Source of the DNA: Candidatus Woesearchaeota archaeon | GTDB lineage: Archaea > Nanobdellota > Nanobdellia > Woesearchaeales > BM511 | DNA: 32,949 nucleotides | Reading direction: 5' to 3' | Assembly (NCBI GenBank): GCA_002867475.1 | Contig: PKTL01000083.1 | Location: 1-32,949, forward strand | Part shown: in pieces, positions 1-24,842 of the stretch | Numbering within the stretch: the first letter of the stretch is position 1 | Layout of the letters: every line of letters begins with the position of its first letter | Made by a program: the position numbers and the translations under genes | Notes under the pieces: model-generated | Seen by the model: only the letters and a program-made list of their open reading frames with translations | What the model was told of the DNA's origin: nothing | The model's database searches: none

Positions 1-3000
1 ACAAGAAATCCAAACTCACATTAAAAACCGCGACATCCAACAAAGGACTACTAACCACGCTAACATTAGTCAAAAAAGCCTCACTAACAACACTACTAAT
101 AGAATTTATTGTTGCGGGATTAAATATTTGAAAGATTTCTGAATCAGTATTTGAAGTAATTACTATTGAAGGGTTGTTAGGTATTTCAACGAGTTGTATT
201 GTTACATTGTAATTTCCAGTAGGAGTATCTAAACCTATATCTATATCTTTGGTGCAAACACCATTAATTATTTCTACTAATTCATCAAATATTATTGTTT
301 GATTTAAGTCAGTTATTAGCACATCACAGAATATCCAACTGGATGTCCCTAAATTTGTTATTGTTCCTTCTTCATTTTTTATTTCTGCTTTTATTTCTAT
401 TGTTGATTCTATTTTTGGATATTTTTCTTCTACTGTTATTTCTGGGTGTAAAAGTGTTAATAAAGTTCTGTTTGTATTAATAATTTTTTGATTATAGAAA
501 TAGTTTGATTGAGATTCTATAGTTATATTTACTAATCCTTCATATGTCGGAGGTATTTCATAATAACAGTGCCCTGTAGAGTTTATTAAAGTTATGTGTT
601 CTATGTTTTCATTTATTGTGAATTGGCAGATTACTGAATCTGTTATTACTTGGTTTGTTCTTGAATTGTTTAATTGTACCAGTATCAGGTTTGTTCCACT
701 TGTATCATATTGATTTATGGTTACATTATTTTTTTGTATGTTACTCATTGATTGAATGGTTGTGTTTGTTATATGTAAACAAGTTGATCCATTAGTATCG
801 CAATATTCAAATTTATATTTGTTTGCCCCTGCAAGCTGTTTTGGTAAGGTTACATTTATTGTCAAGAATTCATCTTGAGTGGTTATGAAATCTATTAGAT
901 TTATCCATTCTAAAATTAGTTCATCATATATCCAGATTCTTGCAGAAAGATTATCATTATCAGGTTCTATTATATTTATAGTAAAATTTCTTTGTGTTCC
1001 CCATTGAGCATATTCTGGAGAATAAGTTGTGTTTAATAGTATTGGCGGCGCATTAGGACTACTTGTTATTTTATATCTTATCCCCCCATATTGTTTAGAA
1101 CTGTGTGTTAATAAGGGTTGCACCAATTTCAAATATTCAGTTACATTGTCTGAATCTGTGTCTTTTATACATGCATAGAATTCATGATTTCCCAAGGTTG
1201 TTTTATTTAATGAAGGGTTTGCTGCGTCACAGTCAGAAATCTCACTCAGGTTTAATTCATAGTAGGTTCCGTTCTTGTACCAATCGACACTTAACTCTAT
1301 ATTTTTTTTATGGTTTGAATCAAGAGTTAGGTTAAATGTCACATTAGTTATTGTTTCGTTTATGAATTGGTCTTTAAGCGACACAGTTATGTTTGTTATG
1401 TATTCTTGAGGTTCTTGGTAAGAAGTTGAATTTATTTCAACTATTTTTATGGTTTGATCATTATACCAAATATAATCTGGTTGTTTTAGATAATAAGTAT
1501 TTATGAAATAGTCTTGTGCGCATCCAGATGTTGTTCCATCTTCTCTAGTATACCCCAGATATGCTGCTCCACTTGATGCTGTGCAGGTTTCTTTATTGAA
1601 ATAGTATTCTTCGCTTCCAAGTAAAAATGATGATGCATTAACTATATTGTACACATATATGGGGATTATAGGGATCGTGTTATAGATTATTTTTAAGGCT
1701 TGATATTCTATCATGTCATCAGAATTTAAGTTATCAGTTACAGCCAATGATTGTATATTATTTTCTAAGGATATATTTATTGGATAAGTAAATTCTAGGT
1801 TTAATTCTTTTATATTTATGTAGTAATCTGTGTAGCTGCTTGTAAAGTTTATTGGAAAAATACAGAAATTAAGATAACAATTGTCAACTATTTGTTGTAG
1901 TGGTATGATATTGAGACTTATGTCTTTTGACTCATTTAGTTGTGTTGATAAAGAGTATAAAATTGAATTATTCAAGGAAATATTTAGACTGTCTGTCACA
2001 TAGCTACTATATTGCTTTATGCTTTCTGTGTCCAAGATCAGTATTTCTTCTTGAGGTGTTTGATCAATGTTTTCGATTAAGGTTTTTTCGTTTGTTTCGT
2101 CTTCGTTTGGTATTTCTGTTTTTATATTATAATATTTGTCTAGGATTGAAAGCTTATCACTCTCCAATATAAGTAATTCATTATTTTCTGATGATGCAAT
2201 ATCTAATATCTCTGATGAGAAAGTTTTTTCAAGTTGACAAGTGGAACCTATACAAGAATATAATTGACCTGTTCTTGTTCCAATGAGTATTGTATTTATA
2301 GATTCTAAGGTTGTCAACAAAACACTTCTTCCAGAATAAGGATAAGTGTAGATTAAAGATCCTGTTGAATTGTATAGTTCAGTTTTATATCTTAAACCTA
2401 TCAATATTTCATAACCATCATAGATAGTCGTATATTCTTTTGTTGATACATCATAGATCTGTTGTGAAAAGGTTATAGGGAATCCGGTTAAGTTTGAAAA
2501 ATCTGAGGTGAATGAATGAATTTTATTATCAGTGTCATATAATAATAAGTCATCTTCATCTGTGTTGTATAAGAGATATATTCTACTCATCAAATTTCCA
2601 TTAATATCTTGTATTGATCCATCATACCATGTTGAATTACCTGTTGTGGCATGATCTACTAATAAATTATAATAACTTGTGCTGTTACAATCCACACATG
2701 TATAATTTATAGTGTTATATTCATTTATATCATTACAATTTACTTCTGTGTCTATCCATTGGTATCTTAGGCTCGTATTTGTCTTTATCTCTACTTTGAA
2801 ATCTTTATTATTATAATTATATTCTTGTGAATTAAGAACATATGAAGTATATTCTTTATCAAGATATGAATAAGGTATGAACATAGTGTTTTCTTCATCA
2901 CATGAATCACAGGTTATCTTCAATGAAGGATTATCATTAAGTTCAGAACAGGATGTTGATAAGGTAATATTTTGGTAAGCTGTTTTATTTGCTACTTGAA

Positions 3001-5761
3001 TATATATAAAAGGTGTTTGATCTTCTTCTAGCATCAAATTATAGTAATTATCATTATCGCATGAATCACAAGTTATGTAGAATTCATTATTGCTTTCTAG
3101 ATCTGTACAATCCAGAGGGATGGTTATCTTAGTATGATTTAATGATGTGTTTGTATATATCTCGGTAATTGGTTTTTGATTTTGATCTAATATTAATCTA
3201 TAATTCTCGTTTGAATCGCAATCTTGACATGTTAGATTTATGAACTCATTTGTATTTAATTCTGTACAATTTATATCATTTATTTTTAGATTTGTGTATT
3301 CATACGAGTCTTCTTCAAAGAGAATTACATCATAGTCTCCAGTTAACTGACAACCTGAACTACAAGTAGGATTTGAGAAATAGAATGAGTTATTTAAGTT
3401 GCTTTCTTCATTTAATGGAAAACTGTAGTTTCCAGCCCCATCAAGGTTTATTTGCAAATTGTTATCGTCTGTTATTAAAGAACAATCTATTTCTGCTTTT
3501 ACAATATTTATAGTTCCGGCTTGACAGGAACTCATGTTTGTTAGGTTAAAGTTTGATAAATCTTCTGGGTCTCCATTTGCACTGCTTAATATAATATTTG
3601 ATTGTGGTGATGCTCCATTATAACATATTTTTGCTCCCACATAACAGTTTGCTCCACTAAACGTTCTATTTATCATATCTTGTAATGTTAAGATCATCAG
3701 ATCGCTATCTGTTAATAATTGGCTATAAGTAGAATCATAAGTTAAGTTTGTTGATGAATAAGGATATAATAAATTATTTGCTTTCTCTTTTATCTGGCTT
3801 TCATTTATATTTATTGTCTGTGATCCGACTGTGAATTGAAGCGAGTTACTTGTTGAATTCTTATAATTTAATGCTAAACTTACTGAACAAGAAGTACCAT
3901 TTACTTTTTTTCCTTGGAGTATTTCTGTTATATTTATTGTTGTATAATCTTGCGTACAACCTACACAGAATATATTTGCGCCAGTATCTTGAGAAATCTT
4001 ATAGCTTTCTGATGCTTTTGCTGTTATTTTTTCTATAGGGATTTCTGTTTCTTTTGAATTTATTGTGAATGTAATATTTTTCTTTTGTCCTTGATAATTA
4101 AATGCAGATACTAATTCGCAAGTATTTTGTTCTGCTGATGTTGTGAAACCTGTGTTTTTTGAGTATAGGTTTGTTAATGAATCATTGATTCTTGTAAGAT
4201 TTTTTGCTATTTGTATCTTGCTTGGGTAATAATTAAAGATTATTTCGTTTGTTATGTTGCTTCCATTTATAATGAATGTCTCTATAGTCTGAGTTCCATT
4301 TTTTATCTGAACTTCTAAAGACATGTTTGAATTGTCACCTTGATATACTAAGGGTATTTCTATCTGGCAATCAATACCTTTTATGTGTGAAGGAAGAATC
4401 CCTTGAGTATTTACTAAAGCATATTCTTGGTTGCACCCTAGACACTCATAACCGACTATATCATTTTGGTTTTCCATATAGAAATCTTGCGAATCATATA
4501 GGATTAAGTTAGTATTCAAGTCATAGGTTGTTTGATTTAGTTTGAAGCTTATATTCTTTTTTTCTTCGTTATAGTTTATTGCGGATCGAATATAGCAAGT
4601 CATGTTTGATGTTGAAATAGATTCCATAGAATAATTTGTCAATAAGTAATAGGTTGAATTTTTTAATCTGAATATGCTTGTTGGATTGTCTGCATCTCTT
4701 TTTATTTCGGTTGTATAATCATTTTTTAGTTTGGAAGATATCACTCTTTGAAAATCTTCTATACCCTCATAAGAATTCAATAATGTTAGATTATAAGAAT
4801 AGATTTTTATGAATGTGTCTCCGGAAATTACTATTTCTTCATTTGGACTATTCAAGTCAAGTTCTGCGCATTCAATACTTTTTATTAGTAATCCTATATT
4901 TTTTTTAGGATATATCAATTGGTTTGAGGTTATGTTGACTTTTTTTAGATATGTTCCAGTTGATATTGCAAGTGTTATTTCATCAGAATCTTCACATAAA
5001 TCAAAATTATTATATATAGATTCTAGATAATCATAGGTTGATAAGGGGTTGTCGAAAGAAGGATTTATGTTCATGTCAAATTTTGTTATGGTTGAATCTT
5101 TTGGTAGTATTAGTGTTCTTTGCGCATTTCCGTTTGAGTCTATATAAATGTTTTCTCCATAGAAACCAGGGTCTGATTCAGTCAGAGGGTTGCATAATGA
5201 GTATGTTTCGTTAAAAAAGCAAAGGCTAAATGTGAATATTGGACTGCTTATGGATAAGGTATAAGGTTCTTTTTGCTCATAGTATTGCTTATTGTTTATT
5301 ATCTGACTGGTATTTAAGAAAGTCATATTTATCGCATAGTATCCTGGTTCGATTATATCAAATAGGATTCGTCCGCCTTCATCTATGCTCGTACCTAACC
5401 AGTTTGCTTTTAGAGCGTAGTCGTTTGCTAAAGAAGGTGTTTGTGTTATAAAGAAATAGTTTGACCATTCACCATTTTGTCTTGCGTAAAAGTTTTTGTA
5501 GGTTATCTTGTTGGGCGTTAGTATTTGAATTGTTAATTCTGAATCTTGATTTGTAGTATTAAACTGCACTTCCCATTCCTTTAGTTCAGGTGTCGCAGTT
5601 TGATTATAGGTTGATTTCTCTAATAGGAGTTTAATATCTTGGTTGAATGAAGAGGAGAATACAGGTATTAGAACTAAGATTATTAGAAATAGTATTAGTT
5701 TATTTGATACTTTATGGAAAGCATTTTTTTTTGATAAAAATTTAAATAAGTTAAACTTCAA
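1..5761 (-). CDS. Giant secreted/surface protein with cysteine repeats, 5' part (3' end outside window)
   Basis: The minus frame is read from a TTG at 5761; every stretch I translated is open and it runs off the left edge, giving at least 1,920 residues. The TTG follows a GGGGTG Shine-Dalgarno by 6 nt; an in-frame GTG at 5770 is the alternative. Residues ~22-35 form a hydrophobic signal segment ending near SSSF. The rest is Asn/Thr/Ser-rich with many N-x-S/T sequons, as expected for a glycosylated exterior protein. Two repeat families are visible: a 159-residue duplication (equivalent Cys at 389/548 and 440/599) and a shorter Cys repeat with first Cys at 760, 832, 885, 938 and 1009, most copies ending in a CxxC motif. 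Residues ~1050-1260 look like beta-propeller (FG-GAP/PQQ-like) blades, and ~1560 onward like Ig/PKD-type domains. Function unknown; adhesin, S-layer-associated or cell-contact roles are inference. Confidence 0.85.
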   Translation of the reverse strand, partial: MKFNLFKFLSKKNAFHKVSNKLILFLIILVLIPVFSSSFNQDIKLLLEKSTYNQTATPELKEWEVQFNTTNQDSELTIQILTPNKITYKNFYARQNGEWSNYFFITQTPSLANDYALKANWLGTSIDEGGRILFDIIEPGYYAINMTFLNTSQIINNKQYYEQKEPYTLSISSPIFTFSLCFFNETYSLCNPLTESDPGFYGENIYIDSNGNAQRTLILPKDSTITKFDMNINPSFDNPLSTYDYLESIYNNFDLCEDSDEITLAISTGTYLKKVNITSNQLIYPKKNIGLLIKSIECAELDLNSPNEEIVISGDTFIKIYSYNLTLLNSYEGIEDFQRVISSKLKNDYTTEIKRDADNPTSIFRLKNSTYYLLTNYSMESISTSNMTCYIRSAINYNEEKKNISFKLNQTTYDLNTNLILYDSQDFYMENQNDIVGYECLGCNQEYALVNTQGILPSHIKGIDCQIEIPLVYQGDNSNMSLEVQIKNGTQTIETFIINGSNITNEIIFNYYPSKIQIAKNLTRINDSLTNLYSKNTGFTTSAEQNTCELVSAFNYQGQKKNITFTINSKETEIPIEKITAKASESYKISQDTGANIFCVGCTQDYTTINITEILQGKKVNGTSCSVSLALNYKNSTSNSLQFTVGSQTININESQIKEKANNLLYPYSSTNLTYDSTYSQLLTDSDLMILTLQDMINRTFSGANCYVGAKICYNGASPQSNIILSSANGDPEDLSNFNLTNMSSCQAGTINIVKAEIDCSLITDDNNLQINLDGAGNYSFPLNEESNLNNSFYFSNPTCSSGCQLTGDYDVILFEEDSYEYTNLKINDINCTELNTNEFINLTCQDCDSNENYRLILDQNQKPITEIYTNTSLNHTKITIPLDCTDLESNNEFYITCDSCDNDNYYNLMLEEDQTPFIYIQVANKTAYQNITLSTSCSELNDNPSLKITCDSCDEENTMFIPYSYLDKEYTSYVLNSQEYNYNNKDFKVEIKTNTSLRYQWIDTEVNCNDINEYNTINYTCVDCNSTSYYNLLVDHATTGNSTWYDGSIQDINGNLMSRIYLLYNTDEDDLLLYDTDNKIHSFTSDFSNLTGFPITFSQQIYDVSTKEYTTIYDGYEILIGLRYKTELYNSTGSLIYTYPYSGRSVLLTTLESINTILIGTRTGQLYSCIGSTCQLEKTFSSEILDIASSENNELLILESDKLSILDKYYNIKTEIPNEDETNEKTLIENIDQTPQEEILILDTESIKQYSSYVTDSLNISLNNSILYSLSTQLNESKDISLNIIPLQQIVDNCYLNFCIFPINFTSSYTDYYINIKELNLEFTYPINISLENNIQSLAVTDNLNSDDMIEYQALKIIYNTIPIIPIYVYNIVNASSFLLGSEEYYFNKETCTASSGAAYLGYTREDGTTSGCAQDYFINTYYLKQPDYIWYNDQTIKIVEINSTSYQEPQEYITNITVSLKDQFINETITNVTFNLTLDSNHKKNIELSVDWYKNGTYYELNLSEISDCDAANPSLNKTTLGNHEFYACIKDTDSDNVTEYLKLVQPLLTHSSKQYGGIRYKITSSPNAPPILLNTTYSPEYAQWGTQRNFTINIIEPDNDNLSARIWIYDELILEWINLIDFITTQDEFLTINVTLPKQLAGANKYKFEYCDTNGSTCLHITNTTIQSMSNIQKNNVTINQYDTSGTNLILVQLNNSRTNQVITDSVICQFTINENIEHITLINSTGHCYYEIPPTYEGLVNITIESQSNYFYNQKIINTNRTLLTLLHPEITVEEKYPKIESTIEIKAEIKNEEGTITNLGTSSWIFCDVLITDLNQTIIFDELVEIINGVCTKDIDIGLDTPTGNYNVTIQLVEIPNNPSIVITSNTDSEIFQIFNPATINSISSVVSEAFLTNVSVVSSPLLDVAVFNVSLDFL

Positions 5762-5810
5762 ATTGTGCACCCCTATTTTAATACAACCTTAATAAAAATA
5801 CATCAATAAC

Positions 5811-22117: not shown

Positions 22118-23362
22118 TTAAAACTTAGAGTACTTAGCTTTTCTGCCAAGTTCTTCCTCGATCCTAAGAAGCTGATTATACTTAGCTACTCTATCGCTTC
22201 TTGCTGGTGCTCCAAGCTTTATTTGACCATTACCAAGAGCAACTGCAAGGTCTGCAATGAAAGGATCTTCAGTCTCCCCGCTTCGATGGCTGACCATGAC
22301 ACCCCATTTATTTCTAAGACTCATATTAGCTGCATCAATTGCTTGACTAAGAGTTCCAATCTGATTCACTTTCAACAAAAGAGCATTACAAAGCTTTTTC
22401 TCTTGAGCAACCCTTATCCTTTGAGGATTTGTTACAAGAAGATCATCACCAACCACTTGTAATTTCTTGTTTCGCTTAGTGAATTTTGCAAAATTATTAA
22501 AATCATCCTGATCGAAAGGATCTTCTATACTGATTATTGGATATGATTCAACCAGATCCTCATAGAATTCTATAATTTCTTCATCTTTAAGGCTTTTATC
22601 AACAGGTTTATACAATCCTTTTGAATAGTATTCGCTCGCTGCAGGATCCATGGCTATCTTTATCTTCTTATTATAACCTGCTTTACTTATTGCATCTTCT
22701 ATCATTGCTAATGCTTCTTCGGGCGTACTTATAGGTGGTGCAAACCCTCCTTCATCACCAACATTCCCAGCATTCAAACCATACCTTTTCTGGATTATAC
22801 TTTTTAATTCATGGTATGTTTCAGCAACCATCTCTGTCGCGTTTGAGAAATTTTTTGCTTTGATTGGTGCTATCATAAATTCTTGCATATTAAGATCATT
22901 GCCTGCATGCTTCCCCCCATTTATTATGTTTGCAAAAGGTATAGGAATTGTGTTCGCTTTTTTATTAAGGTATGAATATAATGTTTGATTCTGAATTTTT
23001 GCAGCACACCTTGCAGCTGCCATGGAAACACCAAGAATTGCGTTTGCACCAAGTTTTTTCTTGTTTTCAGTCCCATCTAAATCTATCATTGTCTGATCTA
23101 TTAATCTTTGATCAGTAATATCTATCCCCTTCATCTTCTTTGAAAGAATTTTATTAACATTGCTTACTGCTTTTTGGACACCTTTACCACCATATCGCTT
23201 CTTCTTATCTCTAAGCTCTACAGCTTCATATATTCCTGTTGATGCACCACTTGGAACGATTGCTCTACCCATAGACCCATTGGCATAAACTTCGACTTCC
23301 ACTGTTGGATTCCCTCTTGAATCCAGAACTTCTCTTGCTTTGATAGATTTTATCTTATCCAT
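22118..23362 (-). CDS. eno: Enolase
   Basis: A 414-residue enolase, normal length. Family motifs are intact: the N-terminal EVLDSRGNPTVEVEV, the flexible loop SGASTG (38-43), NVGDEGGFAP, the metal-ligand stretch ISIEDPFDQDD, VGDDLLVTNP and the C-terminal SHRSGETED. It converts 2-phosphoglycerate to phosphoenolpyruvate in the cytoplasm, following the phosphoglycerate mutase encoded ~1.7 kb downstream. Two TATA-like elements lie upstream on the minus strand: AATAAATA centred 26 nt before the ATG (leaderless) and TTTATAATA ~37 nt before it. Confidence 0.97.
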   Translation of the reverse strand: MDKIKSIKAREVLDSRGNPTVEVEVYANGSMGRAIVPSGASTGIYEAVELRDKKKRYGGKGVQKAVSNVNKILSKKMKGIDITDQRLIDQTMIDLDGTENKKKLGANAILGVSMAAARCAAKIQNQTLYSYLNKKANTIPIPFANIINGGKHAGNDLNMQEFMIAPIKAKNFSNATEMVAETYHELKSIIQKRYGLNAGNVGDEGGFAPPISTPEEALAMIEDAISKAGYNKKIKIAMDPAASEYYSKGLYKPVDKSLKDEEIIEFYEDLVESYPIISIEDPFDQDDFNNFAKFTKRNKKLQVVGDDLLVTNPQRIRVAQEKKLCNALLLKVNQIGTLSQAIDAANMSLRNKWGVMVSHRSGETEDPFIADLAVALGNGQIKLGAPARSDRVAKYNQLLRIEEELGRKAKYSKF

Positions 23363-23394: not shown

Positions 23395-23403
23395 TATTAT
23401 AAA
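23395..23403 (+). promoter_or_regulatory. Candidate TATA box for the 23423-23552 structured element
   Basis: The plus strand reads TATTATAAA, centred at 23399, about 24-26 nt before the 5' arm of the outer stem of the structured element, so a transcript could begin exactly at that arm. Read on the minus strand it could also contribute to enolase transcription. Confidence 0.35.
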
Positions 23404-23422
23404 CTTTTCGATAAAGAAACCA

Positions 23423-23552
23423 TATCAGAAGTCATCGTCTGTGCCTATAAATTAATATTTACTTAATAAATATCATAAATATTAATTGGCCAGAACGAGA
23501 ATTGAGTAAAAATTTTTTTGCTTTACGAAATGAAGTAGTGTGACTTCTGATA
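23423..23552 (+). ncRNA. Candidate structured RNA (or TIR-bounded element), ~130 nt
   Basis: A perfect 12-bp inverted repeat, TATCAGAAGTCA (23423-23434) and TGACTTCTGATA (23541-23552), encloses further nested pairing. Bases 23435-23441 pair with 23491-23498 (one bulge), GCC 23443-23445 with GGC 23488-23490, and the 12-nt arm 23450-23461 pairs perfectly with 23476-23487 around a 14-nt loop. A second small hairpin (GTAAA 23506-23510 with TTTAC 23522-23526) completes a three-way-junction-like fold. A TATA box is correctly placed on the plus strand. There is no ORF, no tRNA T-loop, and it is not a recognised RNA family. A MITE with 12-bp terminal repeats is the alternative, though I see no target-site duplication. 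The strand is uncertain. Confidence 0.42.
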
Positions 23553-23590
23553 AATTAGATAAAATTAATTAAAAGTAAAATTGTAAAAAA

Positions 23591-23740
23591 TTATTTGCTT
23601 TGTTTTTCTGAGAAATCTTTGCATCCTAGATGCTTCAAAGGATTGTTTCCATGTCCTGCCCAAAAGTACTCAATCTCTTTTGTTCTTCTGTTCAAAACGT
23701 TTCTTAGTCTTGTTATCATGTTTATTACCTTGGATATCAT
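23591..23740 (-). CDS. Small basic protein (49 aa)
   Basis: Begins MISKVINMITRLRNVLNRRT and ends KDFSEKQSK, with a distinctive middle EYFWAGHGNNPLKHLGC. It has a basic N-terminal half and one Cys, and no membrane helix. The ATG at 23740 is ~26-28 nt after a TTTATATATC box (~23766-23775, minus strand), the leaderless pattern used by neighbours; an internal ATG at 23719 (42 aa) is the alternative. Non-repetitive composition and a matching promoter argue that it is real. Function unknown. Confidence 0.6.
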   Translation of the reverse strand: MISKVINMITRLRNVLNRRTKEIEYFWAGHGNNPLKHLGCKDFSEKQSK

Positions 23741-23813: not shown

Positions 23814-24842
23814 CTATAAATTGTCTTTAAACTGCTTGTAGAACTTGTCAAAATCCTTCTCATTTACCACGCAGCCACAAGCATTTGTGTGACCTCCACC
23901 GTATCCTTTTACACTTTTAAGAGCATACTTTAATATTTCAGGAAGGTTATGTTTTGTGCTTCTTAAGCTCATCTTGAATTCATTTCCTTTTTTTCTACCA
24001 ATCATTATAACCTTTTCAGGATTTCTGTGAAGTAGTTCATTACTCATATCACTTGTAAAGCTCACTTTATTCTCTTCATAGAAGAATTTAATTATTTTTG
24101 GATCGCTTGTATCAATCCTTTTGTATATAGATTGGTATTCGGTTTCCATCTCTTCGAAGTATTTGTATACAAGTTTTCCTCTTGGACTTGTATGATTTAA
24201 TAATTCATAAGGGTCATCGATCCTGCTCATTATTTTTATCATCTTGTTTATCTGTGATGATTTTCCTTTTAGTATGAAACTAAATATCTTGCAAAGTGTT
24301 GACATCTTAGAATCAAACAATGCTTTTGGTGGAGTATCATGTTCTTTTGATAAAAGATCAGGATATTTTTTTATGAATCCATCCTTAAAATCTGGAAGAT
24401 ACCAGTCAGATACACAACCTATCATTGCTAACCAGATATCTTCAGAGCTGTCTGCTATCTTATAAGATTGATAACTAGTTGGACTATTATCAGAATCTTT
24501 GTCGATTCTTGGATTGAAATATTGTGATCCTCTTGGTTCTTGCGGTGCGTGATGATCTATCCAAAGTATTGGAACAGTTACTTGCTCTAAAAACTCGTTT
24601 GAGATCATTGGTTTATCTAATACAACAACTAAGTCAGGCAAATATTCATTTACTTTTGAAGCATATTCACCTTTAAGTTCAGGTGTACTTTTTACCATGA
24701 TACCTTTACCGAATCCCTTAAACCTATAAAGAAGAAGGAAGCTTATGAGCCCATCAGGATCATCATCATAAAAAAATAATGGCCTTTCTGAATCAAGAAT
24801 CTGTTTTCGTATCTTTTCAAAATCTGAATCCTTGATTGCCAT
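23814..24842 (-). CDS. DHH/DHHA1-family phosphoesterase
   Basis: A 342-residue protein with the RecJ/NrnA-like fold: motif I FFYDDDPDG (Asp26, 27, 28, 30), a second Asp in VVVLDKP (Asp76), the DHH motif at 96-98 (LWIDHHAP) and the C-terminal DHHA1 substrate-binding motif GYGGGHTNACG at 313-323. The metal-binding residues look complete, so it is probably active on short oligonucleotides, single-stranded nucleic acid or cyclic dinucleotides; which one cannot be told from sequence. The size fits the compact NrnA-like or archaeal GAN/RecJ-like group, lacking RecJ's extra domains. A TATA element (ATTATATAAA, ~24870-24879 minus) precedes the ATG by ~28-30 nt. Confidence 0.9.
   Translation of the reverse strand: MAIKDSDFEKIRKQILDSERPLFFYDDDPDGLISFLLLYRFKGFGKGIMVKSTPELKGEYASKVNEYLPDLVVVLDKPMISNEFLEQVTVPILWIDHHAPQEPRGSQYFNPRIDKDSDNSPTSYQSYKIADSSEDIWLAMIGCVSDWYLPDFKDGFIKKYPDLLSKEHDTPPKALFDSKMSTLCKIFSFILKGKSSQINKMIKIMSRIDDPYELLNHTSPRGKLVYKYFEEMETEYQSIYKRIDTSDPKIIKFFYEENKVSFTSDMSNELLHRNPEKVIMIGRKKGNEFKMSLRSTKHNLPEILKYALKSVKGYGGGHTNACGCVVNEKDFDKFYKQFKDNL

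Follow-up and report, generated by a model that had tools for sequence, protein, structure and literature searches.

The closest described counterparts of the repeat reported here are the miniature inverted-repeat elements (MITEs) of the IS6 family, which are short, noncoding, multi-copy and intergenic and carry the hallmarks of that family, GG tips, a cTGTt motif and 8-bp direct repeats; the two IS6 MITEs in a review are 227 and 336 bp long (PMC7986276). ERIC and Correia (CREE) repeats are palindromic sequences that are transcribed with host genes, and Correia RNAs are cut by RNase III (PMC10969869). REP elements are 20–40 bp hairpins with a tetranucleotide tag left unpaired at one end; GTAG and CGTC tags define two REP superfamilies (PMC3733652). 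Candidate structured RNAs of the Rfam type have a conserved secondary structure with compensatory changes. To our knowledge, bacterial and archaeal MITEs have generally been described by their ends, with a selected internal fold rarely shown, and the repeats of the archaea considered here are almost unstudied; a literature search found nothing joining 'DPANN' with 'miniature inverted-repeat'.

The element described below has something in common with each of these systems. It shares with IS6 MITEs all the general features listed above (for the motif, at least CTGT), but it measures ∼100–180 bp, contains a covarying three-way junction and has no autonomous parent that we could find. Like ERIC and Correia repeats it is intergenic, palindromic and multi-copy; by their description, these lack its branched fold, conserved junction bases, strand-specific wobble bias and archaeal hosts. 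The GTAG and CGTC tetranucleotides, the intergenic position and the copy number recall REP elements; however, CGUC and GUAG are located at a three-way junction, and no consistent RAYT accompanies the element. Compensatory changes in a conserved structure are shared with Rfam-type RNAs; the absence of an Rfam 15 match, as well as the copy number and target duplications, which show mobility, set the element apart.

One copy is situated next to the enolase gene in the window, that is, in the whole analysed stretch of 32 949 nucleotides (contig PKTL01000083.1 of an archaeon of the order Woesearchaeales). The features of the site, with the evidence for each, are as follows.

22118..23362, minus strand: eno (enolase), adjoining the element; TIGR01060, E 4e-170
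23395..23403, minus strand: TATA-like box TATTATAAA; the eno start codon, at 23362, is 33 nt downstream of it
23419..23555, plus strand: the complete element, one of five copies in the genome; covariance-model match
23423..23436, plus strand: P1 5′ arm (terminal stem, which in young copies corresponds to the terminal inverted repeat); inverted repeat and family alignment
23437..23438, plus strand: GU of the junction; the same two bases in 89/89 copies
23439..23445, plus strand: P2 5′ strand CUG-U-GCC with a bulged U at 23442; covarying pairs
23450..23461, plus strand: P3 5′ arm (variable apical hairpin); perfect inner repeat
23476..23487, plus strand: P3 3′ arm; perfect inner repeat
23488..23494, plus strand: P2 3′ strand GGC-CAG, then an extra A (23494) present in few copies only; covarying pairs
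23495..23496, plus strand: P4 basal pairs A-U and C-G with 23536 and 23535; RNAalifold and joint states
23497..23499, plus strand: 5′ side of the 3x3 internal loop; family alignment
23506..23526, plus strand: P4 hairpin GUAAA...UUUAC; two-copy comparison and family alignment
23532..23537, plus strand: junction strand, conserved as GNARUA; 89/89 copies have the A of 23537
23538..23552, plus strand: P1 3′ arm; inverted repeat and family alignment
23814..24842, minus strand: RecJ/DHH-family-like protein gene on the far side of the element; weak RecJ matches, under curated cut-offs

The outermost limits of the element are uncertain for want of a clear surviving target duplication. In the spacer that separates the element from the RecJ-like gene, reading by eye gave a 49-codon open frame on the minus strand (∼23587–23739) that could be a small protein gene. 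Elsewhere in the window, at 2–5770, the minus strand is open for at least 1923 codons; this frame, which contains Asn and Cys, runs off the left end of the contig and probably encodes a giant surface protein.

A sequence-only reading of this site had proposed a nested fold beyond chance expectation, and the proposal held up. The outer 12-bp perfect inverted repeat (23423–23434/23541–23552) and the inner 12-bp perfect arm (23450–23461/23476–23487) agree fully with the description in that reading, and the minimum free energy, −38.3 kcal/mol, is far below that of dinucleotide shuffles (−19.1 ± 3.1; z −6.3; none of 200 reached it). Strong folding is likewise predicted for the bottom strand (z −5.7) and for the element as DNA (z −6.6). 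The intermediate helix of the same reading is retained except for its 'ACGA' half, which pairs in part with the 3′ junction (A23495-U23536, C23496-G23535). Its remark that the fold does not look like tRNA, 5S, SRP or RNase P RNA agrees with our searches: no Rfam family matched the window element even at E ≤ 5, seven loci of the repeat family had no match in Rfam 15 at E ≤ 1, a tRNA scan of the site found none, and the archaeal RNase P RNA of this genome (an RNaseP_arch match) is located elsewhere.

A plain DNA search revealed a second copy, 77% identical, on another contig of the same genome, between an unrelated gene and one which, judging by its sequence, we take to encode a MoxR-like ATPase. 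The covariance model built from these two copies (R1) detected the element in three relatives, twice in two of them and once in the other; the next model (R2) had matches in 25 of 353 genomes of the order. With R2 we counted five copies in the window genome, nine in G003 and, at permissive thresholds, 21 matches in G183 and 13 in G038; in searches spanning over 40 genomes, where about nine candidates were scored per genome, copy counts are lower bounds. When a third model (R3) was applied to 371 genomes of the phylum, 19 were positive, all within the same order; this search probably took in well over 100 genomes outside the order, none with a match. In all, the family is present in ∼29 genomes of a single order of small-genome archaea. 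Its presence within the window genome's own family is patchy: genome G001 has no copy, though three of the four family members carry the element.

Searches beyond these genomes gave no match in a plasmid collection. One short match in a phage collection (27% of the query covered) was judged to be due to chance, and so were 11 exact matches to the core pattern in viral contigs, none of which was backed by the covariance model.

The first two copies were found by DNA similarity alone; therefore, their comparison is free of structure-selection bias. Between them the middle helix changes from T-A to C-G, and the outer stem changes from G-C to A-T and from A-T to G-C; P4 is compensatory too once one misplaced gap is moved by eye. 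Wobble pairs in the plus orientation and one C-A mismatch are also seen.

For the family at large, the fold was tested on a sequence-only MAFFT alignment of 89 copies, with no structure fitting. Column covariation recovered P1, P2, P3 and P4. In the refined structure 91.5% of cells are paired, while slid controls reach at most 42%, and both-sided changes occupy 486 cells versus 149 ± 12 in shuffles; these figures of agreement are inflated, as most copies were found by RNA covariance models, which favour structured ones. The sequence-only reading had pointed to covariation in relatives as a test of the structure; the strong covariation found here supports a conserved structure.

The model runs from P1 (with a C-G extension) through the junction GU to P2, with its one bulged base, and the variable apical P3; P4 follows P2/P3 directly, contains a conserved 3x3 internal loop and is followed by a single junction A. 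P1, the terminal stem of this three-way junction, is built from the inverted repeats; P2/P3 and P4 are the other two arms. The two bases 3′ of P2 pair with the conserved ARUAG strand, as indicated by RNAalifold and joint states. These junction pairs (alignment columns 176–281 and 177–280), missing from the model of the sequence-only reading, are paired in 98.9% of cases, with both-sided changes; the states of the P4 basal pairs in the family are A-C/G-U, A-U/A-U and G-C/G-C. A base triple, initially considered for the Y/R covariation, was dropped after RNAalifold for this simple 2-bp extension of P4. Alignment columns C31-G32-U33 and A282 are invariant in 89/89 copies; G23437-U23438 of the window are among the invariant junction bases of the comparative model.

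Two side observations concern the arms. Four copies (L070, L071, L056, L046) have extra hairpins of 40–50 nt inside P3 or P4 loops, as if these loops tolerate insertions. A near-identical P4 arm, CUUACCACGUUCC..AUAC..GUAU..GGGUUGUGGUAAG, occurs in copies of different families (e.g. L098, L013, L081 and L082; genomes G183, G187, G179 and G042), which suggests module exchange or horizontal transfer.

Which strand folds can be judged from single mismatches inside helices. When only Watson–Crick pairs were allowed, we counted 26 G.T versus 4 A.C mismatches on the element strand; with the opposite strand folded, the same count gave 38 versus 5. The G.T excess persisted (18 to 1) in copies antisense to both neighbours. 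Since it does not depend on neighbour orientation, the folding strand belongs to the element rather than to a host message; since tolerance of G.T suits RNA and single-stranded DNA equally, it does not separate the two. Subject to the selection bias of the search, these comparisons give good support to a fold of one strand that is under selection.

Mobility is evident at the ends. Among the 90 copies with enough flank, 21 are flanked by perfect 8-bp direct repeats, compared with 3.9 expected from controls that joined the left flank of one copy to the right flank of another. Perfect 14-nt inverted ends are found directly inside such repeats at L014 of G179 (GAAAATTT/GGTGCTGTCAACTT) and at L018 of G042 (TTTAACAG/GACATTGTTTACTT); the G179 copy reads GAAAATTT, then GGTGCTGTCAACTTAAG ... 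CTTAAGTTGACAGCACC, then GAAAATTT again, with the repeat exactly outside the perfect inverted ends. Terminal inverted repeats of younger copies start with GGNNCTGT or similar, and the ends match at 12–14 of 14 positions in several copies. GG tips, the cTGTt motif and 8-bp repeats are seen, for example, in GGTGCTGTCAAC, GGCTCTGTAGAA and GGCACTGTTGCAAA; these IS6-like features are missing from some subfamilies and unclear in the window genome. No copy of the window genome has a convincing target duplication, the window copy having only a partial candidate (cGATAAAg/aGATAAAa); we treat it as old.

A search for a parent element gave little. A PF13610 IS6-type transposase was present in 1 of 10 carriers, with a score under the NCBIfam IS6 cut-off, and this lone gene is not bounded by the element's ends. 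An end-pattern search of four draft genomes (a weak search, as drafts often miss repeats) found no insertion sequence with these ends; one match, L129, proved to be another degenerate copy. In G179 a lone left end, GGTGCAGTCAACTTAAGACCGTCTGTGCC, without a right half lies beside a VWA-domain-like gene (L127; G179:C51:1594-1608); it is a truncated copy.

Taken together, dispersed noncoding copies, terminal inverted repeats and target-site duplications, as expected of MITEs, along with the IS6-type tips and repeats of some subfamilies, make it well supported that the repeat family is mobile, multi-copy and MITE-like.

Target duplications are scarce in G183, G106 and G038, where P1 identity among copies is only 40–51%, yet 94–97% of P1 pairs are intact. 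Several copies occupy the same locus in different species of this group, with orthologous genes on both sides (L050/L040/L054 and L012/L058) or on one side (L044/L048, L016/L043 and L037/L042). Compensatory differences are seen in P1 at three of these shared loci (L050/L040/L054, L012/L058 and L044/L048), such as AAATCCTTG/CAAGGATTT versus AAATTCTTG/CAAGAATTT and, in L044/L048, AGCTC/GAGC versus AGCTT/AAGC; at L050/L040/L054 and at L012/L058 the junction pair is T-A in some copies and C-G in others. The interiors of shared-locus copies are often closer to copies of the same genome than to the ortholog, a pattern that points to gene conversion or to more than one insertion into the same site; this weakens, without removing, the case for selection in place.

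Judging from these comparisons, the window copy is probably a resident, non-autonomous MITE-like element that combines mobility with a conserved one-strand fold. A DDE transposase acting in trans, IS6-like by the ends and the duplication length, would have spread the element, and the fold, as RNA or single-stranded DNA, would be recognised by something that keeps it conserved.

One could argue that the element is an ordinary MITE or ERIC-like palindromic repeat, the fold being only a by-product of inverted ends, of recent copying and of DNA-level correction of palindromes. This explanation suits the target duplications and terminal inverted repeats, as well as copies that lie between genes in random orientation; the affinity of shared-locus interiors to same-genome copies is what gene conversion or re-copying would give. 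Moreover, part of the complementarity of P1 comes with its role as a terminal inverted repeat, and in simple arms a semblance of covariation could arise when template switching corrects inverted repeats. However, neither the strand-specific G.T excess nor the conserved unpaired junction bases and both-sided changes of junction pairs are expected of strand-symmetric DNA correction; we consider the ordinary repeat unlikely. The MITE alternative mentioned in the sequence-only reading is thus sustained as to a terminal-inverted-repeat element, and its check for further copies in the genome gave the multi-copy outcome (five copies) that a MITE predicts; retention of the fold is what an ordinary MITE would not lead one to expect.

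The explanation favoured in that reading, an independent gene for a small structured RNA that lies beside eno and has a TATA box of its own, has become improbable. The fold and its covariation are real, TATTATAAA is suitably spaced at ∼20 nt 5′ of the outer arm, and TTTATATAG is located upstream of the second copy. Still, 27 of 90 copies have a TATA-like hexamer 13–36 nt 5′ of the element, and such hexamers are equally frequent on the mirrored 3′ flank (30 of 90; 7% at random flanking places). They follow neighbouring gene starts: divergent genes start on that side in 25 of the 27 copies, and of the 33 copies whose upstream gene is co-directional only 2 carry a box. The simplest reading is that the TATA box beside the window element would be the promoter of eno. 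Copies are intergenic and lie in both orientations; the distance to a stop codon is often 0–20 nt and that to a start codon typically ∼50 nt. In some, a gap of only 5–9 nt separates the upstream stop codon from the element. Many dispersed copies with target duplications are not what a single RNA gene would produce, and the sequence-only reading had itself named them as an outcome that would refute its proposal.

It is very improbable that a Y1/RAYT-type transposase drives the element as REP-like single-stranded DNA. The one-strand fold and the GTAG and CGTC motifs of the core could be taken that way; on the other hand, only 4 of 13 carriers have a Y1_Tnp domain, as does 1 of 6 non-carriers examined, the element is several times the length of a REP, and 8-bp target duplications, unexpected of Y1 transposition, count against this mechanism. 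A cis-acting leader or riboswitch of the downstream gene is the least probable of all, for although most G003 copies end ∼47–50 nt before a same-strand start codon, tandem-neighbour copies show no orientation bias (25 co-directional, 24 opposed), neighbours vary with no constant gene partner, and the window copy has no same-strand frame of at least 80 codons before 24958.

For the preferred mobile element with a conserved fold, the leading idea on the purpose of the fold is that it may be a protein-binding module on which the element's propagation depends and which is afterwards kept in resident copies. More tentatively, one could speculate that small-genome archaea harbour a class of structured nucleic acid not described before: RNA or single-stranded DNA, folded into a three-way junction, that spread by borrowed IS6-like transposases and then stayed at its loci for a function that depends on the fold, possibly as a protein-binding cofactor of transposition or as a domesticated processing or organising site.

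What is new here is a MITE-like family in which, unusually, an internal three-way junction is kept by matching mutations across very different copies; it may also prove to be a new functional class. A mobile repeat with a compensatory branched fold, including at shared loci, would tie selfish repeats to functions of structured RNA or single-stranded DNA, and the family offers testable material on structured mobile repeats in archaea.
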